Source: Rhizobium sp. Pop5 (GTDB lineage: Bacteria; Pseudomonadota; Alphaproteobacteria; Rhizobiales; Rhizobiaceae). Taken from it: a stretch of DNA of 64,000 nucleotides. Of the stretch, positions 11,438 to 28,221 are shown one piece after another. How positions within the stretch are numbered: the first letter of the stretch is position 1; each line of letters begins with the position of its first letter. The position numbers and the translations under genes were made by a program. The notes beneath the pieces are model-generated. The model saw only the letters and a list, made by a program, of their open reading frames with translations. It was not told the DNA's origin and made no database searches. Location: positions 124,001 to 188,000 of the forward strand of contig NZ_CP099401.1 in NCBI RefSeq assembly GCF_024721175.1, read 5' to 3'.

Positions 11438-12315
11438 TTAAACAGCCTCTACCATTTTCGCTTCAATCCATCCGGCAAGGGTTTTAACGCCGGGATTTTG
11501 CCTGAGGTGATGAGCAATCCATAACTGCAATCTGTGCGGCCCGGGAGCGAACCCGAACGGAGCGACAAGATGTCCTGCGTTAACCTCGCGCTGAACCAGA
11601 TAGTGAGGCGCCATGGCAACACCCGCGCCGAAGGTAGCCGCTTGAAGCATGAGATAAAAATGCTCATATTCCTCCGCAATCTGGATTTCCGGAATTTTAT
11701 CTCCAACGGCTAGAAACCATTCTTCCCACGCTCCTTTCCGCGTCGCAGTGCCCAGAATTCTTGAGGATTTTAAATCCGAAGTGGATTTCATGGGATTCCG
11801 CAGGAGATATTCTGGGCTACAAACCGGCCCTATTTCCTCTCCGATCATATCGTGGATTACGACATCGTCGGGGGGGCATACATAGTGTTTCGGATCGCGA
11901 CGCTGATGCCGTCCCCTGCAAAATCTACTTCTCCGTAGTTCACGTTGAGACGGAAATGGACATCCGGGTTGAGTCCGCGGAATTCGGGCAATCTCGGAAT
12001 CAGCCAGTACTGCATGATCGTTGCCGAGCACGACAAGGTCAAAGGGCCAGCCGAAAGACGCGCTACCGCCAACTTAAGGGACCGGAACCCTTCGCTGAGT
12101 GTCTGCGCCATCTCGGCCCCCGCCGGCGTGGGCTCGGATGATTTCGAAAGGCGCCGGACTAACGTCGTCGCGTACAGGCGTTCCAACTCGCGAACGTGAC
12201 GGCTTATGGCGCCATGGCTCACATCGAGTTCTTGTGCGGCTTTCGTCATACTTCCCAGCCGTATCGTCGCTTCCAACGCGCGAAGAGCATGCAAGGGAAG
12301 ATTTGCATAGGACAT
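11438..12315 (-). pseudogene. LysR-family regulator with a frameshift in a C7 run
   Basis: The ATG at 12315 follows a perfect AGGAGG site and opens a GcvA-like LysR regulator: winged helix-turn-helix at residues ~5-65 (LHALRALEATIRLGSMTKAA), then the effector domain. The first frame stops at 11857. The rest of the effector domain (GEEIGPVCSPEYLLRNP through AGWIEAKM) continues in another frame down to 11438. The switch lies at 11870-11876, a run of seven G on the plus strand; one extra base would restore a ~292-residue protein. It is divergent from the RuBisCO-like cluster and is the natural candidate regulator. The frameshift could be real decay, slippage or a sequencing error. Confidence 0.8.
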
Positions 12316-12618
12316 TGATAGCCTCCTTACATACTGCACTAAGCAGGATCCCAAGACGATGTCAGCTTGATGCACATCAATGATGGTGTGAATTGCAGAC
12401 CGCTCGACGTTTTACACGGGAATACGCCACCGGCACAGGGATCGGCTAGCGTGGAAAAGCAACTCACCGGTCCATTTTTGTGTAATGATGTGATTCAAAC
12501 TCACACCAGGCGGCTTGCATTGTGCCTATTTTTAGGGGGCTGCGTGTGTATCATCGTCAGAACGATCATCGGCGTACGGAGGAGGGTCCGGTACGCTTTC
12601 GATCGAGGAGGAGATATC
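12316..12618 (+). promoter_or_regulatory. Divergent control region lysR / RuBisCO-like operon
   Basis: This noncoding stretch holds two dyads: TTGATG-CA-CATCAA at 12367-12380, a plausible LysR site close to the lysR start, and TGTGA-N7-TCACA at 12489-12505. A strong ribosome site (GAGGAGGAG) lies at 12605-12613 ahead of the GTG start. The same frame stays open upstream of 12619, but that part has no family resemblance and lacks a good start. Confidence 0.5.
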
Positions 12619-13881
12619 GTGACCAATGCAATGCGCCTCGAGGCTGACTATATCCTTGAGACATACATGCCACCGGAACAAGCTGCGGAAATAATTGCCG
12701 GCGAACAGTCGAGCGGTACGTTCGTCGCGGTTCCCGGCGAAACGCCCGAATTAAAGGCGTTGTCGGCCGCAAAAGTTGAATCCCTCGAGACCATCGCAAC
12801 GTACAATGCAGTTCCAGCTCTCGATGGTCGATATCCCACTGACGCCGCAATGCCTTTGCACCAGGTGAGGATGACGCTGTCCTGGCCTATTGCAACGGTT
12901 GGAACATCCCTTCCCAACCTTCTGGCCACAGTCGCCGGCAATCTTTTTGAACTTGCCTGTGTGACTGGCCTCAGGATTGTCGACATTCGGTTTCCGCCAC
13001 CGTATTTCCAGAAATACAAAGGTCCTGCCTTCGGGATCAAAGGCACTCGTGAACTAACCGGCGTTCAGACCGGACCGATGATCGGAACGATTATCAAGCC
13101 GAGTGTCGGCCTGACAGCTGAGCAAACCGCTTCTCTGGTCCAAGATCTTGTCGCTGGCGGTATCGATTTCATCAAGGATGACGAGCTGCAAAGCGATTCC
13201 TCAGTCTGCCCGTTTGAAGACCGCGTCGATCACGTGATGAAGGTTATCAACCAGGCCGCAGACCGCACGGGCAAGAAGACCATGTACGCGTTCAACTTGA
13301 CCGGCGACATGGATGAGATGCGCCGACGTCATGACAAGCTCGTCTCAGCTGGTGCAACATGCCTGATGGTGAGCCTGAACTCGGTCGGTATGGCGGGTTT
13401 TTTAGGTCTCAGATCGTTCAGTGAGCTGCCGATCCATGCCCATAGAAACGGCTGGGGTTACCTGACGCGTCATCATTCACTGGGCTGGTCTTATGTTGCA
13501 TGGCAGAAGATTTGGCGGCTGGCCGGCGTGGACCACATGCACGTCAACGGTGTCGACAACAAGTTTTCCGAAGACAATGACTCCGTCATCCGGTCGGCGC
13601 GTGAATGCCTGACTCCGATGTCGGCAGACAAGCCCTGCCTGGTCATGCCGGTGTTTTCGAGCGGGCAGACCGTGCGCCAGGCTCACGCCACGTATGCGGG
13701 CTTGCAGTCGGACGATCTGATCGTCACAGCCGGCGGTGGTATCGTCGCTCATCCGAACGGCCCCGCAGCAGGCGTTCAAGCTCTACGGGATGCCTACCAG
13801 GCAGCAATCTCGGGAGAAAGCCTCGAATCGGCTGCAGGACATAGCGATGTCTTGAGGCAAGCCATGGGACCGCGCGCATGA
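12619..13881 (+). CDS. RuBisCO-like protein (form IV)
   Basis: A 420-residue RuBisCO-like protein; the GTG at 12619 is chosen because GAGGAGG precedes it and homology begins there. Compared with RuBisCO, the metal and carbamate set is kept: GTIIKP (Lys160), then FIKDDE (Lys186, Asp188, Glu189), HRN (275-277), DHMH (305-308), Lys315, SSG (347-349) and AGGG (371-374). The second lysine of the KPK motif is serine (Ser162), which argues against CO2 fixation. RuBisCO-like proteins next to DUF1537 kinases are known as 3-oxo-isoapionate-4-phosphate decarboxylase (OiaX) or transcarboxylase/hydrolase (OiaT) in D-apiose catabolism. The kinase gene overlaps this stop by four bases, so a related decarboxylase on a phosphorylated 3-oxo acid is the best guess. 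Confidence 0.88.
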   Translation: MTNAMRLEADYILETYMPPEQAAEIIAGEQSSGTFVAVPGETPELKALSAAKVESLETIATYNAVPALDGRYPTDAAMPLHQVRMTLSWPIATVGTSLPNLLATVAGNLFELACVTGLRIVDIRFPPPYFQKYKGPAFGIKGTRELTGVQTGPMIGTIIKPSVGLTAEQTASLVQDLVAGGIDFIKDDELQSDSSVCPFEDRVDHVMKVINQAADRTGKKTMYAFNLTGDMDEMRRRHDKLVSAGATCLMVSLNSVGMAGFLGLRSFSELPIHAHRNGWGYLTRHHSLGWSYVAWQKIWRLAGVDHMHVNGVDNKFSEDNDSVIRSARECLTPMSADKPCLVMPVFSSGQTVRQAHATYAGLQSDDLIVTAGGGIVAHPNGPAAGVQALRDAYQAAISGESLESAAGHSDVLRQAMGPRA

Positions 13882-15245
13882 CCAGCGCCGTATCGCCTCT
13901 GCCTCCCGGCCCTTTGGTTTCCTTCTACGGCGACGATTTCACGGGATCGTCTGCTGCGATGGAAGCATTTGCCTGGCAAGGCATCAAGACGGTCCTTTTT
14001 CTCGATGTTCCATCGGCGGAACGTTTGGCAGAATTTTCCGATTACAGATGCATCGGTATCGCCGGGATAGCGCGCTCCAAGAGCCCGGCCTGGATGGAAG
14101 CCCAATTACCCGCGATCTTCGAACGTTTGGAAAAAACGGGCTCTCCCATCGTGCACTACAAGGTTTGTTCGACCTTCGATTCCTCGCCTCAGATTGGCTC
14201 CATAGGGAAAGCGGCTGAGCTGGGTGCGGAGCTGTTCCCGGGTCCAATCCCGATGTTGGTCGGCGATCTCGGCATGGGACGGATTCAGGTTTTCGGCCAT
14301 CTCTTCGCTCAAGCCAATGGCCAGTATTATCGGCTGGATCGTCATCCAACAATGGCCACCCATCCCTCGACACCAATGCAAGAATCGGACCTCGCCCGAC
14401 ACCTGGCGTCACAGACCAGTCTGCCTATATCGAATATAGATTTTCTCCAGCTGAAGGCGGGCGATCCGGCAGAGATCATCCGCCTGAACTCCCCAGATAA
14501 GTCGCAAATTTACTCGATCGATCTGCTCGATCAGGAGACGTTGCGTGCCGCAGGACAGGCCATCTGGACCATGGGCAGGGCGCAGAAGTTTGTTCTTGGC
14601 TCACAAGGTGTGGAAGCGGCGCTGGCGGCTTATTGGCGTTCGGAGGGTCTCTTGGATGAACTTCCGGTGGAAACCACGGTGCAGGCGGTCAACAGAATTG
14701 CTGTCGTGTCTGGTTCGGTTTCGCCCATGACTGCCGCGCAGATCGAGCACGCGACGTCTCATGGTTTCGAGGCAATCCGTCTCGATCTAAGTCGGGTGTC
14801 AGACCAGGATGCGTGGAATGCCGAAATTGATCTTGCCGTGCATAAATCCAAGGCCGCTCTGTCCGAGGGTCGCGACCCCCTCGTGTTTACAGCGAAGGGT
14901 CCCGAAGACCCCGCCGTCAAGCAGTTCAAAGCAAAATTCTACCATGACCGGACGACCGCGGAGGCCGCCAACGATCTCATTGGAAGCAGCCTTGGACAGA
15001 TACTCGACAGGCTGATCGAGGAAGCAGGATTAAACCGCGTGGTTCTGTCGGGAGGAGACACGTCTAGCCATGCTGCGTTGAGGCTCAAGATCGACGCCTT
15101 AACCAGTGTGGCGAAGCTTGCTCCAGGCGGTCCCCTATGCCGAGCTCATTCTGCAGACCCGTCCAGAGACGGAATCGAGATCGCGATGAAGGGCGGACAG
15201 GTGGGATCTGTCGGCTATTTCGCGGCGGCAAGAGACGGACAGTGA
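13878..15245 (+). CDS. DUF1537 four-carbon/branched sugar-acid kinase
   Basis: A 455-residue kinase of the DUF1537 family (OtnK, DtnK, OiaK). The N-terminal domain starts with FYGDDFTGSSAAMEAF near residue 15, the substrate-binding DDFTG motif. The C-terminal domain carries GGDTSSHAAL near 393 and KGGQVGS near 440, which bind ATP. It overlaps the RuBisCO-like gene by four bases, so the two are translated together. It probably phosphorylates the acid on which the RuBisCO-like protein then acts. OiaK (3-oxo-isoapionate kinase) is the closest known role; tetronate kinases are the alternative. Confidence 0.88.
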   Translation: MTSAVSPLPPGPLVSFYGDDFTGSSAAMEAFAWQGIKTVLFLDVPSAERLAEFSDYRCIGIAGIARSKSPAWMEAQLPAIFERLEKTGSPIVHYKVCSTFDSSPQIGSIGKAAELGAELFPGPIPMLVGDLGMGRIQVFGHLFAQANGQYYRLDRHPTMATHPSTPMQESDLARHLASQTSLPISNIDFLQLKAGDPAEIIRLNSPDKSQIYSIDLLDQETLRAAGQAIWTMGRAQKFVLGSQGVEAALAAYWRSEGLLDELPVETTVQAVNRIAVVSGSVSPMTAAQIEHATSHGFEAIRLDLSRVSDQDAWNAEIDLAVHKSKAALSEGRDPLVFTAKGPEDPAVKQFKAKFYHDRTTAEAANDLIGSSLGQILDRLIEEAGLNRVVLSGGDTSSHAALRLKIDALTSVAKLAPGGPLCRAHSADPSRDGIEIAMKGGQVGSVGYFAAARDGQ

Positions 15246-15327
15246 AAGTTTTGCCTCGCTCAGATCCGTAAGGACGGAGCGTGTGCCGGTGTATTGCCGG
15301 TAAATTTCGGAGTTAGGGAGGAATGGC

Positions 15328-16098
15328 ATGCCAGAACAGAATGAAACAAGAGTTGCACTCGTCACCGGTTCCGCAATGGGCATCGGGTTCGCGATTGCGA
15401 ATCAACTCGCCTTGGATGGCTTTGCGATTATCATTGCCGACATCAACAAGGAAGCCGCGGAAAAAGCTTCGGACGAACTGAGAGCCGCTAGGCTTAACGC
15501 GCAGTCAGTCGTGATGGATGTCGGCAGTCCAGCTTCGATCGCGGAGGCGTTCAAAGCTGTTGAGGCAGAACATGGTCGCTGCGATGTTCTCGTCAATAAT
15601 GCCGGCATCGCCAAGACATTTCCATTTATCGACTTTCCTTATGACAACTGGGCTGCAACGCTCAACATCAACGTAACTGGGTCACTGCTGTGTAGTCAGC
15701 ATGCCGCGCGGCTTATGCAGCGATTCGGTTGGGGCAGGATCATCAATATTGCATCTGTGGCGGGCGAACGTGCCGTGGGTCATGGCCGGACCGCATACGG
15801 CGTGTCAAAGGCGGCTGTTATCGGCCTGACCAGGCAGATGGCTGCCGAACTTGCGACTTACGGCATCACCAGCAATGCCGTTGCGCCCGGTCCCGTGGAC
15901 ACACCGCTGACCGAGGTTCTCCACTCTGCCGAGTTCAGGGCGACATACACGGCAGCCATTCCGGCCAAGCGTTACGGCAAGCCGAGCGAGATTGCGTCGA
16001 CCGTATCGTTTCTAGCGTCCGACGGCGCGAGCTACATTAATGGTGCGGTTATTCCCGTAGACGGTGGCTTTCTCGCCGCCGGGGCGCTGCCAACTTAG
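15328..16098 (+). CDS. Short-chain dehydrogenase/reductase
   Basis: A 256-residue classical SDR: TGSAMGIG near residue 14 (cofactor), an aspartate after strand 2 (ADIN, favouring NAD), NNAG near 90, serine in IASVAG, and YGVSK (catalytic Tyr and Lys) near 155-159. It ends with the typical INGAVIPVDGG. The ATG follows GGAGG at good spacing, 82 bp after the kinase. In this operon it probably oxidises a sugar or sugar acid before phosphorylation. The known apiose pathways use other families for the oxidation and oxidoisomerase steps, so its reaction is open. Confidence 0.85.
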   Translation: MPEQNETRVALVTGSAMGIGFAIANQLALDGFAIIIADINKEAAEKASDELRAARLNAQSVVMDVGSPASIAEAFKAVEAEHGRCDVLVNNAGIAKTFPFIDFPYDNWAATLNINVTGSLLCSQHAARLMQRFGWGRIINIASVAGERAVGHGRTAYGVSKAAVIGLTRQMAAELATYGITSNAVAPGPVDTPLTEVLHSAEFRATYTAAIPAKRYGKPSEIASTVSFLASDGASYINGAVIPVDGGFLAAGALPT

Positions 16099-16285
16099 GC
16101 GCGGATCGCCTCAGGAGAAACTACGGGCAGCTTTGGAACGAGCATTTGGGTGATGTGCCGCCATTTCGGGAGAGGAGCCCGCGGTTTCCGGCACATCGTC
16201 AACGACGAATACGCATGAATTCAACATTCAACCTAAAGCGACGTGCAATACCTGGGAGGTAGGGCGCGCAAAAGGGGTGTGCCTC

Positions 16286-17296
16286 ATGGAAATGCAATTC
16301 AGAGAAAGTCCTTCGTCAGTTCCGTTCTTCAAGACGATGCAAAAAGTGCCTGCCGGCATGATGTTGATCCCGCTTATACTTGGGGTCCTTATCAACACAT
16401 TTGCACCAGACGCGCTGCGAATTGGCGGCTTCACCCAAGCCTTGTTCAAGGACGGTGCGCTGGCTCTGATCGGCCTGCTGATTTTTGCAACCGGCGCGCA
16501 GATCACCGGCAGCCATAGCGGCAAGGCAGCCGCTGCCACCACCGGCGTGGTGCTGCTGTGCAAGACCCTCATACCTGCAGCGATTGCGGTTATTTTGGGC
16601 CTTATATTCGGGCTCGAAGGCTTCTGGGGAATCTCGATACTTGCGCTCCTCGCTATCATGGGCAATAGCAATGGCGCGCTATGGTTGGCTTTTGCGGGCG
16701 AGTATGGCGATGAGCGAGACACAGGCGCCTATGTCGCCAGCGCCTTCGATGATGGTCCGTTCCTCGCCTTGATCTTTTTGGGCGCTTCCGGCCTTGGTCA
16801 GATCCCGTTCATGGCTCTCGTTGCAGCAATCGTTCCTTTCGCTCTGGGCCTGATCGTCGGCGCTGTCGATCGCGAGTGGACCCGTGTGCTCGATAGCGTG
16901 CCGAGCATCACGATCCCGTTTATGTCCTTTGCCGTTGGAACCGGCATCAGCCTGGGCACAGTGCTGACGGGTGGCGTTCAGGGCCTGTTCCTAGGCGTTG
17001 CGGTCGTCGTTTTTACAGGTGGGCTCAATTACCTCGGCTATCGGTTTTTGTTACGCCGTGGTTCGAAGAGCGGCATTGGCTTCGCGGCAGGGACCACGGC
17101 TGGTAACGCTGTCGCCGTCCCTATGGCTGTGGCCGTGGCCGACCCCCGCTTCCTGCCGTTTGTCGAATCCGCCACCGCGCAAACTGCGACAGCAGTTCTG
17201 GTTACCGCCATCCTGGCACCAATCGTCGCGTCTTGGGTTCTCAAGCGCTCCGGCGGGCTTACTGTGCACGATCCGCTGGCCGCGGGTGTGGCGTAA
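16286..17296 (+). CDS. KdgT-type 2-keto-3-deoxygluconate permease
   Basis: A ~336-residue membrane protein of the 2-keto-3-deoxygluconate transporter family, with about ten hydrophobic helices and the family's glycine-rich segments (for example GNSNGALWLAFAGEYGD and GFAAGTTAGNAVAVP). The ATG at 16286 is chosen; a GTG nine bases upstream and an ATG six bases downstream are alternatives. It is a proton-coupled symporter type, and this member probably imports a sugar acid used by the RuBisCO-like/kinase pathway. It is separated from the upstream SDR by 187 bp and from the ABC transporter by a promoter. Confidence 0.85.
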   Translation: MEMQFRESPSSVPFFKTMQKVPAGMMLIPLILGVLINTFAPDALRIGGFTQALFKDGALALIGLLIFATGAQITGSHSGKAAAATTGVVLLCKTLIPAAIAVILGLIFGLEGFWGISILALLAIMGNSNGALWLAFAGEYGDERDTGAYVASAFDDGPFLALIFLGASGLGQIPFMALVAAIVPFALGLIVGAVDREWTRVLDSVPSITIPFMSFAVGTGISLGTVLTGGVQGLFLGVAVVVFTGGLNYLGYRFLLRRGSKSGIGFAAGTTAGNAVAVPMAVAVADPRFLPFVESATAQTATAVLVTAILAPIVASWVLKRSGGLTVHDPLAAGVA

Positions 17297-17781
17297 CGGG
17301 CCTCCTGAGGAAGGAAGGGGGTGCCCGGTTCCCCTCCTGAACCCACGTCATCGCACCAGTCAACGCGCTGCTAGCCAGCGGGTTTGAGAGAACGATCTTC
17401 AGGTCTGGGATCCTAATCAGGAGAAGCAAGAAGCGGGGGCTTAAGTCAGAGCCTTATGACATTTCATTGACATGTCAGTGGAATTTCACTATGATTTTAT
17501 AGGGAGATTTTGCGGACGGGGCAGGAAGTCGTTCGGTCCGGCTTAAAGTCTGAGACAATAAAAGAGGTCGCTACACTGGCACATCTGGATGTGGCGCAGC
17601 CTGGTAAGCTTAGACCGAAAGACGACATCGTGAGAGGTTGCCCAAGCGCCGTTGATGGCACTGCGGTCGCCACCGACCGGCTAGTCGTACTCGCCTGAGA
17701 AAAGCCTGACAAAACGGCAACGCCGATTTCGCGGCCATGCCCAAACAAATGTACATCATTCGTTGGAGGAGGAGCCGCGAC
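17297..17781 (+). other. Intergenic leader ahead of sugar ABC operon
   Basis: This 485-bp stretch contains a good sigma-70 promoter (17467-17495) and a ~280-nt untranslated leader before the ATP-binding gene. Short open frames on both strands here show no family resemblance and no ribosome site. No known riboswitch class was recognised, but the leader is long enough to hold a structured element. Confidence 0.5.
17467..17495 (+). promoter_or_regulatory. Sigma-70 promoter with overlapping palindrome
   Basis: TTGACA at 17467-17472 and TATGAT at 17490-17495 are separated by 17 bases, close to the consensus. A perfect 10-bp palindrome TGACATGTCA (17468-17477) overlaps the -35 box. That is where a repressor such as the GntR/FCD protein encoded at the operon end would block transcription. 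Which regulator binds is an inference. Confidence 0.65.
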
Positions 17782-19353
17782 ATGAGTGCTGAGATAAGTG
17801 CAACAGGTTTGCGGCCTGATGATTTGAACGGCGAAAATTTCGCCGCCAGAGTCTCCAGCATCGATAAAAAATACGGCGTCGTGCACGCGCTCAAAGGTGT
17901 TTCCATTTCGTTTAACCGCGGCGATGTTCACGCGATCGCGGGCGAAAACGGTGCTGGCAAGTCTACGCTCATGAAGATTTTGTCGGGCGTGATCGGCGGC
18001 TACGACGGACATATCGAGATTGAAGGCGAACGCTGTCGATTTGACAGCATTCGCGATGCTGAAAGGCACGGCGTGTTTCTGGTTCCACAGGAACTCAATG
18101 TGGTGCCGGAACTGCGGGTTGGTGAATACCTGTTCCTCAACCGGGAACCTCGCCGTTGGGGCATGGTGGATACAAGGATGCTGTGGGCTGACGCGGTCCG
18201 CTGGCTGGCAGTCTTCAAGCTCGATCTGTCTCCGTTATTGCGCATGGGCGACCTGAGCACGCACCAGCAGCAACTCGTCAGCATCGCCCGCGCGATGACG
18301 CAGGGCGTAAAACTGCTGATCCTCGATGAGCCGACATCGAACCTGACCGAGCGTGAGACCGAACTGATGTTCGAGCAGATTTCCAATCTGCACAAGCACG
18401 GTGTGACTACCATCTACATCTCTCACCGGCTCCATGAGTTCGAGCGCATCGCAAACGCGGTGACGGTCATGCGCGACGGCGCAGTCGTTGATCAGTTCCG
18501 CCTTTTGGGGCAGTCCGACACACCGCGTCGAGTCGTTCAGGCCATGGTTGGGCGAGACCTCACGGAGATGTACCCCAAGGTCGCTGTCGTAGCTGGCAAG
18601 CCCAAACTATCCCTGCGGGGATGGACCATTCCAAATCGCGGGCCGGGGCGTGCCAATCTCGTTGAAAATCTCAATCTCGATGTCCGGGCAGGCGAGGTCC
18701 TGGGGATATTCGGCCTGCTCGGCTCGGGAGCCTTCGACCTGACGCGCTCGCTTTTCGGAGCCCACGAGGCAAAGGTGCGGGGTAGGATGGAAGTCGGCGG
18801 TCGGGCCGTCACCGTTGTAAGCCCGCGCGACGCCATTCGCAGCGGCATTGCCTACGTTCCCGCCGAGCGAAAGCGCGACGGTCTGATAGAAGCTCACTCA
18901 ATCACGAGCAATATGACTCTGGCCGCACTCGGTCGTCTCACGCATTTCGGTTTTCTTGACCGCTATGCCGAACTTAAGAGCGTGCAGCAATATGTGACGA
19001 GCCTCAAGGTCAAGTGCGGATCTGTGGAGCAGTCGATTTCGCAACTTTCGGGCGGAAATCAGCAGAAGGTTGTAGCTGCGAAATGGCTGCTCACCGCACC
19101 GGAGGTTTTCATCCTCGAAGAGCCGACGAGAGGCGTGGACATCAATGCACGCCTCGATTTCTACGCGCTTATCAACGACCTCGCGGCGGCGGCTAAGGCA
19201 ATCATCATCGTTTCCACTGATTTGCCGGAGGTACTGGGCATGTCCGACCGTGTGCTGGCCATGCTCGAAGGGAAAATCGTGCGGGAATGGTCCCGGGGCG
19301 AGGCAACGGAGGAGGACGTGATGACAGCAGCTGCATGTGGATCCAGGCAATGA
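17782..19353 (+). CDS. Sugar ABC transporter ATP-binding protein (RbsA/XylG type)
   Basis: A 523-residue protein with two fused ATPase domains. The first has a full Walker A (GENGAGKST near residue 54) and Walker B (LLILDEPTSNL near 178). The second has a degenerate P-loop (GLLGSGAFDLTRSLFG) but a clear signature LSGGNQQK near 425 and FILEEPTRGVD. This asymmetry is normal for RbsA, XylG and MglA. The start at 17782 follows GGAGGAGG; an in-frame ATG 45 bases upstream lacks such a site. It overlaps the permease gene by four bases. It energises uptake of a monosaccharide or sugar acid. Confidence 0.92.
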   Translation: MSAEISATGLRPDDLNGENFAARVSSIDKKYGVVHALKGVSISFNRGDVHAIAGENGAGKSTLMKILSGVIGGYDGHIEIEGERCRFDSIRDAERHGVFLVPQELNVVPELRVGEYLFLNREPRRWGMVDTRMLWADAVRWLAVFKLDLSPLLRMGDLSTHQQQLVSIARAMTQGVKLLILDEPTSNLTERETELMFEQISNLHKHGVTTIYISHRLHEFERIANAVTVMRDGAVVDQFRLLGQSDTPRRVVQAMVGRDLTEMYPKVAVVAGKPKLSLRGWTIPNRGPGRANLVENLNLDVRAGEVLGIFGLLGSGAFDLTRSLFGAHEAKVRGRMEVGGRAVTVVSPRDAIRSGIAYVPAERKRDGLIEAHSITSNMTLAALGRLTHFGFLDRYAELKSVQQYVTSLKVKCGSVEQSISQLSGGNQQKVVAAKWLLTAPEVFILEEPTRGVDINARLDFYALINDLAAAAKAIIIVSTDLPEVLGMSDRVLAMLEGKIVREWSRGEATEEDVMTAAACGSRQ

Positions 19354-20555
19354 ACATGAGCGCGAGGACGACAGTGACGGCACAAACGACAACGAACAAG
19401 GGAGGGACATTCCGGAATCTGCCAGAAATGATGTCACATGGCGAGCTTCGGCTGCTGCCGCTGATCATCGTTCTGATGGTGGTCTGGATGGTGATGCAGT
19501 ATCTCACCGGCGGGCTCTTTCTCAGTGCCCGCAATCTTACCAATCTGAGTGGCCAGGTCGCCATCACCGCGCTGCTGACATCCGGCGCCGTCTTGATAAT
19601 GATCCCGGGCTTCATCGACCTTTCGCTGGGCGCGACCGTTGCTGCCGCCGCCGTGATCGCCGCAATGGCTGGGGCACAGTTCGAGCTTCCGCTTTGGCAG
19701 ACCATCGTGGTCACCTTGGGCTTCGGCTTGGTGATCGGTCTTTGGCACGCTTTTTGGATCGCGTGGATGAAAGTGCCTTCCTTTATCGTGACCCTGGGCA
19801 GTCTGCTGGCCATACGCGGTCTATCGCTTGTCATCACCAATGCCGAGACGATATCGCCGAGCCCGGATATCCTGGTGATCTCGGACACGTCCTTGTCGGC
19901 AACGCTGAGCATTGTCGTCTTGATGGCCTTCTGGCTCGCCTTTGCACTGCTGCAGTTGCGGGAGTGGAGGGCTCGGAAGCAAGCCGGCATCAAGTCGTCA
20001 TTTTTTTCCGTCGTCGGTATACCGGCGGTGTCTGTGGGCATCTTTGCATGTGGTGTCATGGTCGTGGCCGTCAGCTACAGGGGTTTGCCTCTGCCAGTGG
20101 TTTTCGTTCTGGCGGTTGTCGCCCTGACCGGCTGGCTGCTGCGTTACACCGCTTTCGGCCGTCGGCTCTACGCCATCGGCGGCAATCGCCAGGCGGCCTT
20201 GCTCGCCGGGATCAATATTCGTGCACATGTCTCCATGGTGTTCGCGTTCATGGGGCTGCTCTACGGTTTGGCCGGGCTTGTATTGGTTGCCCGTCTCGAC
20301 AGCGCGCCGCCAGGCGCAATGCAGGGGCTCGAACTTAACGTCATCGCCGCCGCCGTGATCGGCGGAACCAGCCTCATGGGTGGCAGGGGAACCGTGGCTG
20401 GTGCCGTCATCGGCGCAATCCTGATGGAAAGCCTGTCCAACGGAATGAGCCTCATGAACCTGCCGTCGGCCTACCAGTCCATCACGGTCGGTCTCGTCCT
20501 CCTTTTTGCAGTCTATGCAGATATGCGCGGACGCGGCGGAAGATTTGGAGACTGA
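19350..20555 (+). CDS. Sugar ABC transporter permease (RbsC/XylH type)
   Basis: A 401-residue integral membrane protein of the branched RbsC/XylH/AraH family, with roughly ten transmembrane helices. The signature between helices is visible: [20 protein letters not shown]. An extra loop of ~40 residues (VISDTSL through [10 protein letters not shown]), containing a [11 protein letters not shown] stretch, is typical of the longer XylH-like members. The ATG at 19350 overlaps the ATPase stop (ATGA). It forms the channel for the substrate brought by the downstream binding protein. Confidence 0.9.
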
Positions 20556-20631
20556 TTGAAGCAGTCTTCGACCACATACTGTCTATCGAATTGTCGCCGA
20601 TGGAGTGCGACAGAAACTGGGAGAGAGAAAC

Positions 20632-21717
20632 ATGACAGACAAAGTGAAGAAGTCGGGCATCACACGCCGGCATACGCTCGGCATCGCCGGGGCAGGTTTG
20701 CTGGCAGCGCTGGTGAACTTCAAGGCCGTTCATGCGCAAGACAAGAAACTGAAGGTCGGCTTGATCATGCCGAATTACGATCAGCTTCGCTGGAAGAACG
20801 CCGACCAGGCATTCTTCGAAAAGCAGGCTGCCGAACTGGGTATCGAAGTCCTTGCCCAAGCCTCTAACGCGTCGGAATCGCTGCAGGCGAGCCAGGTTGA
20901 GAATATGCTCACGCAAGGGATCGACGTTCTCGTCCTTACGCCAGTCAACGCGAATGCGGCCAATGCGCTGATCCGCAAGGCCAAGCAGGCGAACGTGCCA
21001 GTGATCAACTACAACTTCCTGATCAACAAGGGCGACGTCGTCTGCTTCCTCGGTCGCGACGCGGTGGAGATGGGCGAGAAGATTGCTCAGGCTGCAGTCG
21101 CGGCCCATCCGAAGGGCAACTATGTGATCGCCGCCGGCGAGGAATCGACCAGCGTTGCCAAAGAGACACGTCAGGGTTTTCTCAACGTGCTGAAGCCGTT
21201 TCTGGATAAGGGGGACATCAAGCTGGTGTCCGATCAATTCAACAAGAACTGGTCAACCGACAGCGCGCGTGCCCAGGTTGAGAACGCTTTGACGAAGAAC
21301 AACAACGACGTGGTCGCTGTTCTTTGCGGCAATGACGGCACCGCTTACGGAGCCATCCAGGCCCTGCAGGCGCAGGGGCTCGGCGGCAAGGTCTTCGTTA
21401 CCGGCGTCGATGCGGAGCCACGTGCGCAGGAACTTATCAAACAGGGTCTGATGGCGCTGTCCAACTTCACGGCCTTCGACCAGATGGGCGTCGAGGCAGC
21501 CAAGGCGGCGTTTGCTATCGGGAATGGCAAGCCGATCGAAGCTTCCGCCACGGTCAACAACGGCCTGAAAGACGTGCCGTGGATCAAGATCCTGAATTTC
21601 AACGTCACCAAGGATAATCTCGACCAGGCGACCAAGGACTTCCCCCTGGTGGTTCGCCAAGGCCTGATCGAGATAGCGGCCCTCGGGACCCAAGACGCCG
21701 AGGGCCGCGAAGCCTGA
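20632..21717 (+). CDS. Sugar ABC transporter substrate-binding protein (XylF/RbsB type)
   Basis: A 361-residue periplasmic binding protein. The N-terminus has a twin-arginine-like signal (TRRHTLGIAGAG) and a hydrophobic stretch ending at VHAQ, so export may be by Tat. The mature part follows the type I periplasmic fold of XylF/RbsB (LKVGLIMPNYDQLRWKNADQ; LTQGIDVLVLTPVNANA; VAVLCGNDGTAYGAIQAL; VFVTGVDAE). The start is the ATG at 20632 after GGGAGAGAG. The known D-apiose binding proteins belong to this broad family, which agrees with the catabolic genes next door, but the ligand cannot be read off. Confidence 0.9.
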   Translation: MTDKVKKSGITRRHTLGIAGAGLLAALVNFKAVHAQDKKLKVGLIMPNYDQLRWKNADQAFFEKQAAELGIEVLAQASNASESLQASQVENMLTQGIDVLVLTPVNANAANALIRKAKQANVPVINYNFLINKGDVVCFLGRDAVEMGEKIAQAAVAAHPKGNYVIAAGEESTSVAKETRQGFLNVLKPFLDKGDIKLVSDQFNKNWSTDSARAQVENALTKNNNDVVAVLCGNDGTAYGAIQALQAQGLGGKVFVTGVDAEPRAQELIKQGLMALSNFTAFDQMGVEAAKAAFAIGNGKPIEASATVNNGLKDVPWIKILNFNVTKDNLDQATKDFPLVVRQGLIEIAALGTQDAEGREA

Positions 21718-21742: not shown

Positions 21743-22516
21743 GTGACCGATGAATTTTTAATGGAACCTGCGGGACATCAGCACGATCTTGCGACACGGC
21801 TTGGCGCCGTGCTTCGAGGCATGCGGGTGGTGGATCTGTCGCCGATGCTGGAAAGAGGCATTCCGAACTGGCCGATGCATCCGCCGCTTGTGATCGACAA
21901 GGCGAGACTGAAGGCACGCGACGGCTATTATAGCCAGTTGCTCATGATTTCAGAGCATACAGGGACCCACGTCGATGCGCCCGCCCATTTCCACGATGAC
22001 CTCATGCACATGACAATCGACACAGTCCCACCAGACAAGTTGATTGCGCCCGCAGTGCTCTACGATTTTTCGGACAGGCATCTCCAGCCAGGAGATTTGA
22101 TTTCCCTGGACATGGTGAAAACCTACGAGGCGGAAAAAGGTGTGCAGGTCGGAGAGGGCGAAATTCCGCTGATTAACTTTGGTTGGATGCAGCGCTTCTG
22201 GCGGACCGACGATCAGAGCACCTGGTTTGTCAAGAACGCCCCGGGTATCCAGGAGGATGCGATCATCTATTTCAAGGAGAGAGGCATCCGAGCGATCGGC
22301 TGCGATACCGTTGCTTGCGATATGGCCGTGATCGATGGTGTCGGTCAGGAGACAACCGGGCATACTACACATTGGTTGCCAAACGGTATTTTGATTATTG
22401 AGATGCTCACCAACCTCCATCAGCTTTCTCTGCGCAGCCTCTTTGTTGCCACTCCTATGAAAATCAAGGACGGTTCGGGATCGCCAATTCGTCCCGTTGC
22501 TTTCTGTGAGCCGTGA
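21743..22516 (+). CDS. Cyclase / kynurenine formamidase-like metal hydrolase
   Basis: A 257-residue protein of the cyclase (PF04199) family. The metal-binding motif HTGTHVDAPAHF lies near residues 72-83, and later histidines (TTGHTTHWL) are present. Family members hydrolyse N-formylkynurenine or other amide and lactone bonds. It begins 26 bp after the binding-protein gene and is cotranscribed with the transporter. In a sugar-acid operon it might open a lactone such as an aldonolactone, a role played by other families in known apiose pathways. That function is an inference. Confidence 0.82.
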   Translation: MTDEFLMEPAGHQHDLATRLGAVLRGMRVVDLSPMLERGIPNWPMHPPLVIDKARLKARDGYYSQLLMISEHTGTHVDAPAHFHDDLMHMTIDTVPPDKLIAPAVLYDFSDRHLQPGDLISLDMVKTYEAEKGVQVGEGEIPLINFGWMQRFWRTDDQSTWFVKNAPGIQEDAIIYFKERGIRAIGCDTVACDMAVIDGVGQETTGHTTHWLPNGILIIEMLTNLHQLSLRSLFVATPMKIKDGSGSPIRPVAFCEP

Positions 22517-22642: not shown

Positions 22643-23359
22643 ATGAAACACGATTCTAGTCCCGGTCAAGAATATGTCGGCCCGAAGCGTGTCCTGCTGC
22701 GTGATGAGGCATACCAGACGATCAAGGAGTTCCTGCTCACCGAAGAGTCCGAAGAGGTCCTCTCCGAACGAACGCTTGCATCGCGGTTCAAGCTGGGTCT
22801 CGCGCCCGTGCGATCTGCAGTCGAACGTCTAAGAGCGGAGGGACTACTTACGGCGATGATGAACAGCGGCCTCCGTCTCCCGGAAATCACCGCACGCGAA
22901 ATCTTGGACTTCTACGAGATGCGGATGGTGATCGAGGTGCACGTCGTCGCCTCGCTCACAGGCAAGCTTTCGGATGATCAATTACAACAACTGTACCAGA
23001 TACTGGACGAGCAGGATATCTGCGCAGAAATTCGTAATACGAACCGCTACCACCAGCTTGATCTGGACTTTCATACAACGCTTGCAGAGTTGCACGGAAA
23101 TTCCGAGATGGTTCGGACCCTGCAACAGATGCGCGACAAAATGTACAGGCTTTCGCGACGCCTACACCGACTTCATCCCGATCGACTGAGTTTGAACGCG
23201 CAACAGCATAGGGCGATCGTAGATGCAATTCGTGAAGGTGAGATCGACAAGTCGCGCAAGAGTATGCAGGCGCATCTGGCCTGGGGACGTGCATTCACCC
23301 TCGATCCCAACGGGCGATTGGGAGGGGACTGGCAGCGATTGACGGTCGCTGCAGGCTGA
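22643..23359 (+). CDS. GntR-family regulator with FCD domain
   Basis: A 238-residue transcription factor: winged helix at residues ~20-75 (SERTLASRFKLGLAPVRSAVERLRAEGLL) and an all-helical FCD effector domain at ~85-220. The FCD domain carries metal/ligand residues D and H in HQLDLDFHTTLAELHGN and a later QHRAIVDAI. FadR/UxuR-type FCD regulators commonly sense organic or sugar acids and repress the linked operon. The ATG follows GGAG. It is the last gene of the catabolic island and the only regulator there with an intact frame. Confidence 0.88.
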   Translation: MKHDSSPGQEYVGPKRVLLRDEAYQTIKEFLLTEESEEVLSERTLASRFKLGLAPVRSAVERLRAEGLLTAMMNSGLRLPEITAREILDFYEMRMVIEVHVVASLTGKLSDDQLQQLYQILDEQDICAEIRNTNRYHQLDLDFHTTLAELHGNSEMVRTLQQMRDKMYRLSRRLHRLHPDRLSLNAQQHRAIVDAIREGEIDKSRKSMQAHLAWGRAFTLDPNGRLGGDWQRLTVAAG

Positions 23360-24309: not shown

Positions 24310-24354
24310 TGATGATAGTCATCATATTTACTCAGCAATGATGACAGTCATCAT
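24310..24354. promoter_or_regulatory. Paired TetR operators in divergent promoter
   Basis: Two near-identical palindromes, TGATGATAGTCATCA (24310-24324) and ATGATGACAGTCATCAT (24338-24354), have centres 29 bp apart, between the TetR gene and the SDR gene. A plus-strand promoter (TTGACA at 24301-24306, TATTTA at 24325-24330) has the first palindrome in its spacer. Repression of the plus-strand operon by the adjacent TetR protein is the expected reading. Confidence 0.75.
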
Positions 24355-24388
24355 GAATATAGTGTTGATTTCAAGAAAGGGCAATGCC

Positions 24389-25177
24389 ATGACCGACAAG
24401 CCAACCGTCCTTATTACCGGGGCCTCCACAGGCATTGGTGCCGCCTACGCCGAACGCTTCGCGCGCCGTGGCCATGACCTGGTGCTGGTCGCCCGTAACA
24501 CGGCGCGGATGGAGGCGCTGGCCGATCGTCTGCGACGCGACACCGGCGTTACGATCGACATCATGAAGGCGGATCTGGTCAATCCAGCGGAGCGTGTAGC
24601 GGTCGAGGCGCGGCTGCGTGACGACGCACAGATCGGAATCCTCATCAACAATGCCGGGGCGAGCCTGGCGGGCACCTTTATCGAGCAAGCTGTTGACGAT
24701 ATCGACAGGCTGGTGACGCTCAACACGACCGCGCTCGTGCGCCTTGCGCACGCCATCGCTCCCCGCCTTGCGCAAGCGGGTGAAGGCGCGATCGTAAATA
24801 TCGGTTCCGCAGTTGGCCTCGCTCCGGAATTCGGCATGCCGGTCTATGGCGCGACCAAGGCCTTCGTGCTGCATCTCTCCCAGGCGTTGAGCCTCCAGCT
24901 CGCTTCCCAGGGCGTCTACGTCCAGGCCGTGCTTCCGGCTGCGACGCGCACCGAGATCTGGGGCCATGCGGGCGTCGATGTCGACACCCTTTCAGGTGTG
25001 ATGGAGGTGGACGATCTGGTGGACGCGGCCTTGGTCGGCTTCGACCGGCGCGAGCCCGTCACCATCCCGCCACTTCATGACGGGGGACAATGGTCAGATT
25101 TCGAGGCCGCGCGTCAGGCCATGATCCCCGGCTTCGCGCAGTCCCGGCCCGCCGATCGCTATCTGGCGAGCGCGTGA
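24389..25177 (+). CDS. Short-chain dehydrogenase/reductase (TetR cluster)
   Basis: A 262-residue SDR with TGASTGIG near residue 10, NNAG near 86, serine in NIGSAVGL and YGATK near 154. The arginine in ARNTARME after strand 2 suggests NADP preference. The ATG at 24389 is used because homology begins there. First gene of the TetR-controlled set, followed 53 bp later by an Old Yellow Enzyme. The substrate is unknown; the set looks suited to reducing reactive carbonyls. Confidence 0.88.
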   Translation: MTDKPTVLITGASTGIGAAYAERFARRGHDLVLVARNTARMEALADRLRRDTGVTIDIMKADLVNPAERVAVEARLRDDAQIGILINNAGASLAGTFIEQAVDDIDRLVTLNTTALVRLAHAIAPRLAQAGEGAIVNIGSAVGLAPEFGMPVYGATKAFVLHLSQALSLQLASQGVYVQAVLPAATRTEIWGHAGVDVDTLSGVMEVDDLVDAALVGFDRREPVTIPPLHDGGQWSDFEAARQAMIPGFAQSRPADRYLASA

Positions 25178-25230
25178 GAAGCCACAGAATTACGCAAACG
25201 CATCAACGCATTCGAACGGAAACTGAGACG

Positions 25231-26325
25231 ATGACCGATACCGATTTGTTTAGCCCTTACGACCTCCGCGGCCTCGCGCTTGCGAACCGCATCGTCATGG
25301 CGCCCTTGACCCGCAACCGCGCGGCGGCGGGCCTCGTGCCGAGCCGATTCGCGGCGAACTATTATGCGCAGCGCGCGAGCGCCGGGCTCATTATTACCGA
25401 GGCCACGCAGGTCTCGCGGCAGGCTCAGGGTTATCAGGATACGCCCGGCCTCTACACGCCCGAACAGATCGCAGGTTGGCGCCAGGTGACCGACGCGGTC
25501 CATGCCAAGGGCGGCCGCATCTTCGTGCAGCTCTGGCACGTCGGTCGTGTCAGCCATGTCGATCTTCATGACGGAGAGGCGCCGGTCGCGCCATCGGCGA
25601 TCCGTGCCGAGACCAAGACGTTCGTGAACAATGGTTTCGTCGATGTATCCGAGCCCCGCGCGCTTGAAGTGGACGAGATCTGCGACATCGTCGAGGATTT
25701 CCGCAAGGCCGCGGCCAATGCGATCGAGGCCGGTTTCGACGGCGTCGAGGTCCACGGTGCGAATGGCTATCTGCTTGACCAGTTCCTGCGCGAAACTGCC
25801 AATGTCCGCACGGACGTCTATGGCGGTTCGGTCGAGAACCGCGCCCGGTTGCTGATCGAAGTGACCGCCGCCGTGGCGAGCGAGATCGGTGCGCAGCGTA
25901 CGGGCGTTCGCCTCTCGCCGGTGTCTCCGGCAAGCGGCATCGTCCCGTCGAGTGGCGAGCAAACGCAGTTCAACCATGTCGTGGAAGCGCTCGACGGTCT
26001 TGGCATCGCCTATATCCACGTCGTCGAGGGCGCGACCGGCGGACCGCGTGATGTGACGCCCTTCGATTTCGACGCACTGAGGCAGCGCTTCCGCAACACC
26101 TACATCGCCAACAATGGCTATGACTTTGAACTGGCGAAGTCGCGCCTCAGCGAGGGCAAGGCCGACCTATTTGCCTTTGGGCATCATTTCATTGCCAATC
26201 CCGACCTCGTCGAGCGTTTCAAAAGCGGTGTGGCGCTCGCCCAAATGAATCCGGCCACGATCTACGGTGGCGGCGCTGAGGGCTACACCGATTATCCCGC
26301 CGCGATCGTTTCAGCCGACGCCTGA
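25231..26325 (+). CDS. Alkene reductase, Old Yellow Enzyme family
   Basis: A 364-residue flavoenzyme of the NemA/OYE family that reduces activated C=C bonds or nitro groups with NAD(P)H. Family motifs are MAPLTRNRA near the N-terminus, QLWHVGRVSH, the active-site segment VHGANGYLLDQFLRE and TDVYGGSVENRARLLIEV. The usual second active-site histidine position (HGAHGY in many members) is asparagine here, as in the H/N-type OYEs. The start at 25231 is chosen from homology. The conserved flavin-binding end (YIANNGYD, then ADLFAFGHHFIANPDL) is intact. Confidence 0.92.
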   Translation: MTDTDLFSPYDLRGLALANRIVMAPLTRNRAAAGLVPSRFAANYYAQRASAGLIITEATQVSRQAQGYQDTPGLYTPEQIAGWRQVTDAVHAKGGRIFVQLWHVGRVSHVDLHDGEAPVAPSAIRAETKTFVNNGFVDVSEPRALEVDEICDIVEDFRKAAANAIEAGFDGVEVHGANGYLLDQFLRETANVRTDVYGGSVENRARLLIEVTAAVASEIGAQRTGVRLSPVSPASGIVPSSGEQTQFNHVVEALDGLGIAYIHVVEGATGGPRDVTPFDFDALRQRFRNTYIANNGYDFELAKSRLSEGKADLFAFGHHFIANPDLVERFKSGVALAQMNPATIYGGGAEGYTDYPAAIVSADA

Positions 26326-26341
26326 TCGGGAGGAGAGTATC

Positions 26342-27343
26342 ATGAAGGCCTTCATTCTCGACCGCTACGGCAAGAAACAGCAGTTACGACTGGGCGACAT
26401 GCCCGAACCCGTGCCTGGCCCCAACGACGTGCTAGTCGAGGTTGAGGCAGCAGGGCTCAACCCGCTCGACTCCAAGATCAGGGACGGCGCATTCAAGCCG
26501 ATCCTTCCGTACAAGCCGCCGCTCGTCCTCGGCCATGAGCTTGCGGGCACGGTCATCGCGGTCGGCGCAAATGTACGGCGCTTCAAGCCGGGAGATGCCG
26601 TCTTTGCGCGACCGCGTGACGGGCAGATCGGCGCTTTTTCCGAACGCATCGCCGTCGAGGAAGCCGATCTGGCGCCCAAGCCTCTTAGCCTGTCGATGGC
26701 GGAGGCCGCGTCGATCCCGCTGGTCGGGCTGACCGCCTGGCAGGTGCTGGTCGAGCGAGCGCAGATTAAGCCGGGACAGAAGGTGCTGATCCATGCCGGA
26801 TCAGGCGGCGTCGGCACTTTCGCCATCCAGCTCGCCAAGCATCTCGGCGCCACCGTCGCAACGACCGCGAGTGCCACCAACACCGCAATGGTGAAGGAGC
26901 TGGGTGCGGATGTCGTCATCGACTACCGCAGCCAGAAGTTCGAGGAAGAGCTGTCGGGCTACGACGTCGTTCTCAACAGTCTCGACGCCGCGACGCTCGA
27001 AAAGTCGCTGAAGGTCTTGAAGCCTGGCGGCAAGCTCATCTCAATCTCCGGCCCCCCCGACCCCGCCTTCGCGCAGGCTCAAGGATTGAATGTGGTGCTT
27101 CGGATCGTGCTGCGCCTGCTCAGCCTGGGCATCCGGCGCAAGGCGAAGCGCGCGGGCGTCGACTATTCGTTCCTGTTCATGCACGCGGACGGAGAGCAGT
27201 TGAGCCGGATCTCCAAGCTAATCGAAGACGGCACAATTCGCCCCGTGGTCGACCGAGTCTTCGCCTTCGCGAAACTGAAAGAAGCTCTCGCGTACGTCGA
27301 CACCGGGCGCGCCAAGGGCAAGGTTGTCGTCACGCTCAAGTGA
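26342..27343 (+). CDS. NADP-dependent medium-chain reductase (quinone oxidoreductase-like)
   Basis: A 333-residue member of the zinc-independent branch of the medium-chain dehydrogenase/reductase superfamily. It has the GroES-like N-terminal domain (NDVLVEVEAAGLNPLDSKI), GHELAGTV, and the dinucleotide fold HAGSGGVGTFAIQLAKHLGA near residues 150-170. The catalytic zinc cysteines are absent. It starts 16 bp after the OYE gene behind GGAGAG. Probably reduces quinones or enones. Confidence 0.9.
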   Translation: MKAFILDRYGKKQQLRLGDMPEPVPGPNDVLVEVEAAGLNPLDSKIRDGAFKPILPYKPPLVLGHELAGTVIAVGANVRRFKPGDAVFARPRDGQIGAFSERIAVEEADLAPKPLSLSMAEAASIPLVGLTAWQVLVERAQIKPGQKVLIHAGSGGVGTFAIQLAKHLGATVATTASATNTAMVKELGADVVIDYRSQKFEEELSGYDVVLNSLDAATLEKSLKVLKPGGKLISISGPPDPAFAQAQGLNVVLRIVLRLLSLGIRRKAKRAGVDYSFLFMHADGEQLSRISKLIEDGTIRPVVDRVFAFAKLKEALAYVDTGRAKGKVVVTLK

Positions 27344-27369
27344 CGCGATCCCAAAACAAGGATTCCACT

Positions 27370-28221
27370 ATGACTACCGGTATTCATAGCGCAGATTGGA
27401 AGACGGCACCCACCCGCCACGTCGAAGCCGCCGGCACGCGTTTCGTCTATCGGCGTCTCGGGCCTGACGCCGGCGTGCCGGTGGTGCTGCTCAATCACTG
27501 GGGCGCGAACCTCGACAATTTCGACCCTCCCATCGTCGAGGGGCTCGCTGCCGATCGGCCGGTCTATGCCCTCGACTATCGTGGCATCGGCGCGTCTGGC
27601 GGCGCAGCCCCTCTGAGCGTCGCCGAAATGGCGAGAGACACCATCTCCACAGTCCGCGCGCTGGGACTGACGTCGGTCGATCTGATCGGCTTCTCGCTCG
27701 GTGGCTTCGTTGCGCAGCAAATCCTTCTCGACGCGCCTGATCTCGTCCGCCGCGCCATCCTCGCCGGAACAGGCCCTGCGGGCGGAAAGGGTATCGAACG
27801 GGTCGGTCCCGTTTCGTGGCCGCTAATCATCAAGGGCCTTATCACCTTCCGTGATCCTAAATTCTATCTCTTCTTCACGTCAAGCGCGGCGGGTAAGCGT
27901 GCGGCCAAGGCGTTTCTCGCTCGATTGAAGGAGCGTACGAGAGATCGTGACAAGGCGGTCCCGCTGAAAGCCTTTCTGCGACAGTTGAAGGCCATTAAGG
28001 CTTGGGGCCAGCAGGCCCCTCAACCGCTGGACGTCGTTGACAAGCCCGTCCTCGTGGCGAACGGCGATCATGACATCATGGTGCCAAGCGAGAACTCCTC
28101 CGATCTGGCACGTCGCATCCCTGGCGCGCAGCTCGTCCTGTACCCCGACGCAGGCCATGGCGGCATCTTCCAGTATCACGACGCCTTCCTGACAAAGGCC
28201 AAAGCCTTCCTGGGGGCCTGA
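27370..28221 (+). CDS. Alpha/beta hydrolase
   Basis: A 283-residue alpha/beta-hydrolase. The nucleophile elbow GFSLGG lies near residue 109, the acid is likely the aspartate of NGDHDIMVP and the base the histidine of AGHGGIF. The oxyanion region appears as LNHWGAN. It resembles haloperoxidase/esterase-like hydrolases often found with TetR-regulated oxidoreductases. It starts 27 bp after the reductase and is the last intact gene of the operon. Confidence 0.88.
   Translation: MTTGIHSADWKTAPTRHVEAAGTRFVYRRLGPDAGVPVVLLNHWGANLDNFDPPIVEGLAADRPVYALDYRGIGASGGAAPLSVAEMARDTISTVRALGLTSVDLIGFSLGGFVAQQILLDAPDLVRRAILAGTGPAGGKGIERVGPVSWPLIIKGLITFRDPKFYLFFTSSAAGKRAAKAFLARLKERTRDRDKAVPLKAFLRQLKAIKAWGQQAPQPLDVVDKPVLVANGDHDIMVPSENSSDLARRIPGAQLVLYPDAGHGGIFQYHDAFLTKAKAFLGA

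Follow-up and report, generated by a model that had tools for sequence, protein, structure and literature searches.

A short-chain dehydrogenase, Rubisco-like protein and DUF1537 kinase unit of Rhizobium: a possible acid-import variant of the OiaT–OiaK pathway

Contig NZ_CP099401.1 of Rhizobium sp. Pop5 (assembly GCF_024721175.1) carries an operon that pairs a Rubisco-like protein (RLP) with a DUF1537-family kinase. We call the whole stretch analysed, 64 kb of this contig (C4; positions 124,001 to 188,000), the window; the genome to which it belongs comprises 6.74 Mb in five contigs, at an estimated completeness of 99.67%. At roughly even odds (about 0.5), and as judged from sequence, the five core genes of the operon, listed below, would form an acid-import variant of the OiaK–OiaT pathway that is fed by a short-chain dehydrogenase (SDR). 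The nearest known system is the OiaT–OiaK branch of D-apiose catabolism, reportedly described by Carter et al. in 2018. The unit is ordinary in its parts, and it is a real, recurrent pathway variant. Its genes are:

11438..12375, minus strand: LysR-type regulator (GcvA-like), divergent, with the frame broken near 11870 (two tblastn pieces)
12619..13881, plus strand: RLP of the OiaT type, 420 aa from a GTG start (Pfam RuBisCO_large, 223 bits)
13878..15245, plus strand: DUF1537 kinase, nearest to OiaK (SBD_N, 156 bits; NBD_C, 120 bits)
15328..16098, plus strand: SDR, proposed to oxidise the C3 hydroxyl of an aldonate (profile and tree data)
16277..17296, plus strand: permease of the KdgT family, a proposed importer of sugar acids (353 bits with Pfam KdgT; 202 bits with NCBIfam kdgT, whose cut-off is 454)

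The GTG start of the RLP gene is preceded by GAGGAGGAGATATC. As the initial annotation had pointed out, this gene and the kinase gene overlap by four bases on the plus strand, the SDR and the KdgT permease follow the kinase, and a cyclase-family gene lies farther on.

The arrangement is not a chance one, because LysR, RLP, kinase, SDR and KdgT recur together in eight other loci, whose RLPs are 79–93% identical to that of the window. These loci (each designated L with a number), which with the window make up the nine of the ‘window kind’, belong to Rhizobium wenxiniae (L002), Paracoccus (L003), two family members (L205 and L206), and plasmids of R. etli (L082), Agrobacterium tumefaciens (L083), Rhizobium sp. 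CC1099 (L084), and R. leguminosarum (L216). RLP, kinase, SDR and KdgT stand in the same order in all nine, and in Paracoccus KdgT is separated from the SDR by a pyruvate kinase gene.

For a wider comparison, species genomes were scanned and 577 stretches confirmed; we kept the 80 whose RLPs are most like that of the window, a sample that is biased by this choice. Locus content was scored by tblastn with fixed thresholds over at most 10 kb per side, many stretches being ended by contig ends. ApnO is present in 48 of the 80 loci and an SDR unit in 18; none has both and 14 have neither. Four loci first labelled as SDR loci (L057, L069, L079, and L081) were scored as ‘neither’, since their SDR does not adjoin the kinase and the kinase lacks Asp130 (see below), and two (L006 and L010), with genes for a tripartite ATP-independent periplasmic (TRAP) transporter and pyruvate kinase between kinase and SDR, were assigned to the SDR units by hand. 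The 48 ApnO loci include 24 with ApnL, 18 with ApsD (a Gfo/Idh/MocA sugar dehydrogenase), 32 with a NanR-type GntR regulator, three with a LysR of the same family as in the SDR units, and one with pyruvate kinase; KdgT, the cyclase, and a TRAP transporter of the same kind (at least 45% identical to the Azospirillum proteins) were found in none. Among the 18 SDR units, LysR occurs in 13, either part of the TRAP transporter in 12, pyruvate kinase in four, and KdgT and the cyclase in two each, and their stretches yielded no ApnL, ApsD or NanR. An acid importer, whether TRAP or KdgT, thus accompanies 14 of 18 SDR units versus 0 of 48 ApnO loci. The RLP–kinase–SDR unit extends over Rhizobium, Agrobacterium, Paracoccus, Azospirillum, Methylobacterium, Microvirga, and Bradyrhizobium. 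An SDR like that of the window also lies near a DUF1537 kinase and a more distant RLP (50–52%) on plasmids of Chimaeribacter, Caballeronia, and Cupriavidus KK10, the last again with pyruvate kinase.

Two further arrangements were seen among these loci. In one genome an RLP is followed by an SDR with no kinase between them (L012), and a second locus (L004) has an RLP and a kinase, with ApnO 8 kb off on the other strand. A gene cluster matching beta-keto acid cleavage enzyme lies near the RLP in L005, L012, L025, L048, and L052; the match to PF05853 refers to the L005 copy, the one scanned.

The initial annotation had read the gene overlap as the signature of OiaX or OiaT together with OiaK. An OiaT/OiaK-like pair is what we find, and OiaX was rejected: the RLP scores 406.6 bits against the OiaX model NF042437 (cut-off 700), is 40–44% identical to OiaX proteins, and differs from them in catalytic residues. 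Nineteen catalytic positions, numbered as in Rubisco, were mapped by aligning the RLPs to two Rubiscos of form I (L182 and L183). The window RLP has the commonest ApnO-type residue at 19 of 19, and the 53 ApnO-type rows are invariant there, whereas all 30 OiaX rows (29 of them from the genus of the window) depart from it at E60 (D), N123 (G), and H327 (Q). The first KPK lysine (160) and the KDDE motif of the carbamylated lysine and metal ligands (186–189) are kept and the second KPK lysine is replaced by serine 162, as had been noted; this loss is the rule of the family and no peculiarity of the window, with S at this position throughout the 53 ApnO-type rows and A in all but one of the 30 OiaX rows. 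A carboxylating Rubisco of forms I–III, which needs both KPK lysines and H298, was rejected because K177 corresponds to S162 and H298 to W279; the form III model gives 249.5 bits (cut-off 497). Rejected likewise was the methionine-salvage enolase MtnW (TIGR03332, 141.9 bits against a cut-off of 513.6), which excludes the functionally different RLP group that the initial annotation had named as the outcome contradicting it.

Phylogeny agrees with this placement. A quick tree built from 98 RLP rows separates the six OiaX rows by one branch (100) and leaves the window with the remaining 92, a group that takes in loci with ApnO, ApnL and ApsD; it sets the window RLP with OiaT-type RLPs, apart from OiaX. 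The group is taken as the OiaT group because seven of the 120 listed matches of the Ancylobacter RLP (L031), 80–81% identical to it, bear the Joint Genome Institute (JGI) name 3-oxoisoapionate-4-phosphate transcarboxylase/hydrolase; the label rests on these names and on ApnO neighbours, with no row of proven OiaT activity. On these grounds we take the window RLP to be of the OiaT type. According to one report (PMC6302742), 3-oxo-isoapionate-4-phosphate is acted on by the RLPs of A. radiobacter K84 and X. autotrophicus, through decarboxylation and through transcarboxylation and hydrolysis. Within the group, the first RLP tree placed the window kind apart on a long stem, unjoined to the SDR/TRAP rows. 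In an approximately unbiased (AU) test, from which eight rows were left out (L087, L063, L056, L047, L070, L054, L066, and L033), holding the two together improved the tree by 41.8 log units over the free quick one (p-AU 0.909), so that their grouping is allowed, though not proven, by the RLP. Predicted structures have a mean predicted local distance difference test score of 89.5 for the RLP and 91.0 for the kinase.

The kinase scores 526.5 bits against the OiaK model NF042436, below the cut-off of 700, which is also missed by a kinase adjoining ApnO (L167, 594.4 bits) and passed by that of L089 (822.2 bits). In a quick tree of the kinases, the window kind belongs to a 24-row group with an SH-like approximate likelihood ratio test (SH-aLRT) support of 97, consisting of 21 SDR-type rows, one ApnO-only row (L004), and two unlabelled rows. 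A mark of these kinases is Asp130, which lies in the sugar-binding domain near the invariant Arg135. It is found in all six window-kind rows and in 15 of the 19 rows first labelled SDR (the exceptions being the four loci later scored as ‘neither’); elsewhere it occurs in 1 of 33 apiose rows, 1 of 17 ApnO-only rows, 2 of 5 other rows, and 0 of 5 OiaX rows, and the distant Chimaeribacter kinase has another residue at this position. That Asp130 implies a changed kinase substrate is a fair guess.

A rival reading has the unit degrade an ordinary four-carbon acid. In threonate or erythronate degradation, the SDR would form 3-oxo-tetronate for the kinase, and the RLP would replace OtnC as the decarboxylase to yield dihydroxyacetone phosphate. 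DUF1537 kinases are reported to act on four-carbon acids and threonate to be a product of plant ascorbate (PMC10971088 and PMC12540250, respectively), and acid importers would fit. We nevertheless consider this reading quite unlikely, given RLP catalytic residues of the OiaT type and a kinase that matches the 3-oxo-tetronate kinase model at 173 bits, far below its score with OiaK.

The initial annotation had also remarked that the dehydrogenase, lactonase and oxidoisomerase of the apiose pathway do not accompany the operon. Their absence is borne out across the whole genome for ApnL and ApnO and at the loci for ApsD, for which the search covered loci only. No ApnL was found in the window genome or in two other SDR-type genomes (L002 and L008); 14 control genomes gave no ApnL signal, and after positive genomes had been added 8 of 11 genomes matched. 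ApnO is absent from the window genome, its sole match being one of 23 bits and 33% identity. The genome has a single RLP and no OiaX, an RLP above the OiaX cut-off being present in 60 of the 120 relatives searched. If ApnL plus ApnO in the genome is taken as the mark of a D-apiose catabolic operon, the window genome has neither. An ordinary apiose or apionate pathway with its missing enzymes encoded elsewhere draws on the relatedness of the RLP to OiaT and of the kinase to OiaK, and on ApnO occurring somewhere in 7 of 14 other genomes with SDR units. For the window genome these whole-genome searches for ApnL and ApnO, made at near-complete assembly, lead us to reject such a hidden pathway; acid importers moreover replace the usual sugar ATP-binding cassette (ABC) set, and we regard the idea as largely refuted and extremely improbable.

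ApnO moves a hydroxymethyl group in the apiose pathway, and no SDR is known to perform this shift. Apionate itself is therefore an unlikely substrate, since the ApnO step is missing genome-wide; of the suggestion in the initial annotation that the operon might serve a variant pathway for apionate or another branched sugar acid, the second half is what the locus resembles. In the pathway that we propose, KdgT (in sister lineages TRAP) would import a sugar acid already carrying a one-carbon branch at C2, and the SDR would oxidise the C3 hydroxyl of this aldonate to a 3-oxo acid; with the branch in place on arrival and the SDR as oxidant, ApnO would not be needed. The DUF1537 kinase would then phosphorylate the terminal hydroxyl, and the RLP would remove the C2 carboxylate to give a Rubisco-like enediolate, whose cleavage would yield 3-phosphoglycerate together with a small acid, for example glycolate. 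A 3-phosphoglycerate product fits the pyruvate kinase genes beside several units and the GlcD homologues of the window genome, one of which has a neighbour read as GlcE. Isoapionate and hamamelonate (2-carboxyarabinitol) are our leading guesses for the substrate.

At 219 bits against a cut-off of 215, the SDR itself qualifies for a subfamily named glucose 1-dehydrogenase. In a tree of the 55 SDRs of these loci, built without outside SDRs, those after the kinase form, together with three from Azospirillum and one from L081, a cluster of 24 (support 86). A match to the SDR occurs in 62 plasmid records. In nine of the first 13 of these (SDRs 50–94% identical) an RLP lies no more than about 13 kb away, one of the nine (Rhizobium sp. 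Kim5) being counted by coordinates only, its kinase unchecked. A second, separate SDR group lies directly upstream of the RLP in L005 (an ApnO locus), L008, L009, L012, L013, L014, and L017; none was seen directly 5' of the RLP in the window kind, and this group is outside the model.

Downstream of the operon lies an auxiliary module:

17737..19353, plus strand: sugar ABC transporter ATPase (xylose/GguA-like)
19287..20555, plus strand: ABC transporter permease
20605..21717, plus strand: ABC substrate-binding protein (XylF-like)
21743..22516, plus strand: cyclase-family protein, which may open a lactone
22643..23359, plus strand: GntR/FCD regulator

The module is linked with the pathway and is not obligatory. 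It accompanies five of the nine window-kind loci; the stretches fetched for the other four lack it and keep KdgT and SDR. Among 348 plasmid records with a cyclase match, four have one more than 80% identical (R. leguminosarum, R. etli, R. phaseoli, and A. tumefaciens), and all four carry an SDR-type RLP within about 10 kb; in R. phaseoli (L217) a TRAP-type SDR unit has the module on its upstream side. In two Bradyrhizobium loci (L023 and L035), parts of it lie about 4 kb downstream on the other strand, so that the cyclase occurs near SDR-type RLPs in three different arrangements; among 120 relatives a cyclase match at E < 1e-60 was confined to the window genome. We propose that the same acid may also be used as its lactone, which the ABC transporter would take up and the cyclase-family protein would open. 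Genes for a glutathione S-transferase and an AraC protein that lie close to the cyclase in A. tumefaciens and the Bradyrhizobium loci were set aside as probably unrelated.

Alternatively, the SDR might oxidise an imported aldose at C1 and the cyclase open the resulting lactone, with kinase and RLP acting without a separate C3 oxidation. The XylF-like binding protein, the possible hydrolase downstream and the subfamily assignment of the SDR all suit this scheme. We hold it to be very doubtful, because the chemistry of this RLP family, as far as is known, needs a 3-oxo group and because four window-kind loci have KdgT and SDR yet no ABC–cyclase module in their stretches.

Several observations weigh against the proposed variant. 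The split between SDR and ApnO is weak at genome scale: of 16 other genomes searched for ApnO nine lack it, and without L057 and L081, which are not proper SDR units, seven of 14 lack it and seven have it somewhere. The genomes of L013, L015, L016, and L048 have ApnO on a contig where no RLP was found, and the SDR unit holds the sole RLP of the L015 and L016 genomes, so that there the kinase and RLP of the unit may also take 3-oxo-isoapionate from ApnO. The same LysR is kept in three ApnO loci, and some ApnO loci hold more distant TRAP (25–33%) or SDR (28–37%) genes. The SDR is one member of a very large superfamily, and sequence does not reveal which reaction it catalyses; the SDRs after the kinase fall into two sub-groups, about 43% identical and joined with a support of 86 only, so that two recruitments are possible. 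The stretches of four of the 13 plasmid records with an SDR match (SDRs 58, 55, 53, and 50% identical) contain no RLP, one of them (L223) ending at the end of its record. The GlcD homologues score below the model cut-off (466.6 versus 567.9 bits). Expression is uncertain because the window LysR is broken: its tblastn pieces, relative to the R. etli orthologue, lie in different frames (amino acids 1–149 at 89% and 148–290 at 76%), and the break sits in a run of seven G at about 11870–11876. Either the gene is a pseudogene, or the run varies in length, or the assembly is at fault here; in the eight other window-kind loci LysR forms one tblastn piece with at least 94% coverage.

Separate loci in some genomes point the other way. 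The Paracoccus genome (L003) has an OiaX-like RLP, a kinase and ApnO on one contig, apart from the SDR unit; the Microvirga genome (L009) has a locus of OiaT-like RLP, kinase and ApnO separate from its unit; and in the genome of L012, ApnO lies 8 kb from the other RLP (L004). The SDR unit would be redundant there if it also handled apiose. The ApnO genes on contigs where no RLP was found favour a shared intermediate, 3-oxo-isoapionate or a close compound, which ApnO would supply from apionate and the SDR from a different acid.

A special case of the proposed variant has D-hamamelonate as the substrate, the unit being the lower part of a D-hamamelose pathway like that of Ochrobactrum. The SDR would give the 3-oxo acid, the kinase its 5-phosphate, and the RLP, by decarboxylation and cleavage with or without O2, 3-phosphoglycerate and glycolate. 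The 3-oxo acid 5-phosphate would be the six-carbon intermediate of Rubisco minus one phosphate. Residue 130 of the kinase, unlike that of most apiose-locus kinases, also suits a different substrate. The published D-hamamelose pathway (Kim et al. 2018) reportedly includes an RLP of Ochrobactrum anthropi, described as an oxygenase, among sugar genes, and 3-phosphoglycerate and glycolate are named for it in a second-hand account (PMC8914248); this pathway may overlap the SDR–RLP–kinase unit. Carboxyarabinitol-1-phosphate and hamamelonic acid 2(1)-phosphate are identical according to the title of a work cited in PMC9833046, which itself reports the acid from leaves. We think the hamamelonate case possible though unlikely: the catalytic residues of the RLP are the same as in the ApnO type, ApnO without a second RLP in the L015 and L016 genomes speaks for 3-oxo-isoapionate as the shared intermediate, and no conserved sugar dehydrogenase was seen in the unit.

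Seen against characterised systems, the unit resembles the OiaT–OiaK branch in an RLP of the same tree group (62% identical to the Ancylobacter protein), with the same catalytic residues, and in the kinase family. The window locus is unlike that branch in having an SDR instead of ApsD, ApnL, ApnO, and a NanR-type regulator, and the window kind and its sisters are unlike it in their KdgT or TRAP importer, LysR and kinase Asp130. With the OiaX–OiaK branch it shares the superfamilies and the gene partnership, but not the RLP type. A further RLP–DUF1537 type (L148, L169–L172, and L174; L184 is L172) coexists with SDR-type RLPs in several genomes. Its RLP is likewise followed by a DUF1537 kinase, and three of six short stretches hold a TRAP binding protein, yet its RLPs are 45–47% and its kinases 32–35% identical to those of the window, and the L184 kinase reaches 240 of 700 bits with OiaK. 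Literature searches on RLPs, DUF1537 kinases and branched sugars, mostly at the level of titles and abstracts, brought up no title about an SDR–RLP–kinase unit, which is not proof of novelty.

Elsewhere in the window, positions 24338–28221 hold a catabolic-looking cluster of SDR, NADH:flavin oxidoreductase, zinc alcohol dehydrogenase, and alpha/beta hydrolase genes, and on the minus strand at 29248–31076 an AbiEii-family protein and a DUF6088 protein resemble a type IV toxin–antitoxin pair.

The unit marks a distinct group of RLPs and DUF1537 kinases, for which we found no tested function. A single short pathway that can be assayed, acting on a branched sugar acid, is predicted from it, and it suggests that Rubisco-like chemistry can be fed by different upstream oxidation. 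The RLPs of R. etli CFN42 and R. phaseoli CIAT652 have been credited with a role in CO2 uptake (in a passage of PMC8914248); if they are OiaX-type or SDR-type catabolic enzymes, that reading would change. The farthest-reaching version of the pathway, in our view improbable, is that soil and plant-associated bacteria use an RLP to destroy the 2-carboxy-D-arabinitol skeleton, with the SDR acting at C3, phosphate added at C5, and the RLP decarboxylating or cleaving the product. 2-Carboxy-D-arabinitol is hamamelonate, the dephosphorylated form of the inhibitor that restrains plant Rubisco at night, and its C3-oxo C5-phosphate would be a near copy of the six-carbon intermediate of Rubisco. If 2-carboxyarabinitol is indeed the acid, the regulation of Rubisco in leaves would be linked to carbon use by soil bacteria.

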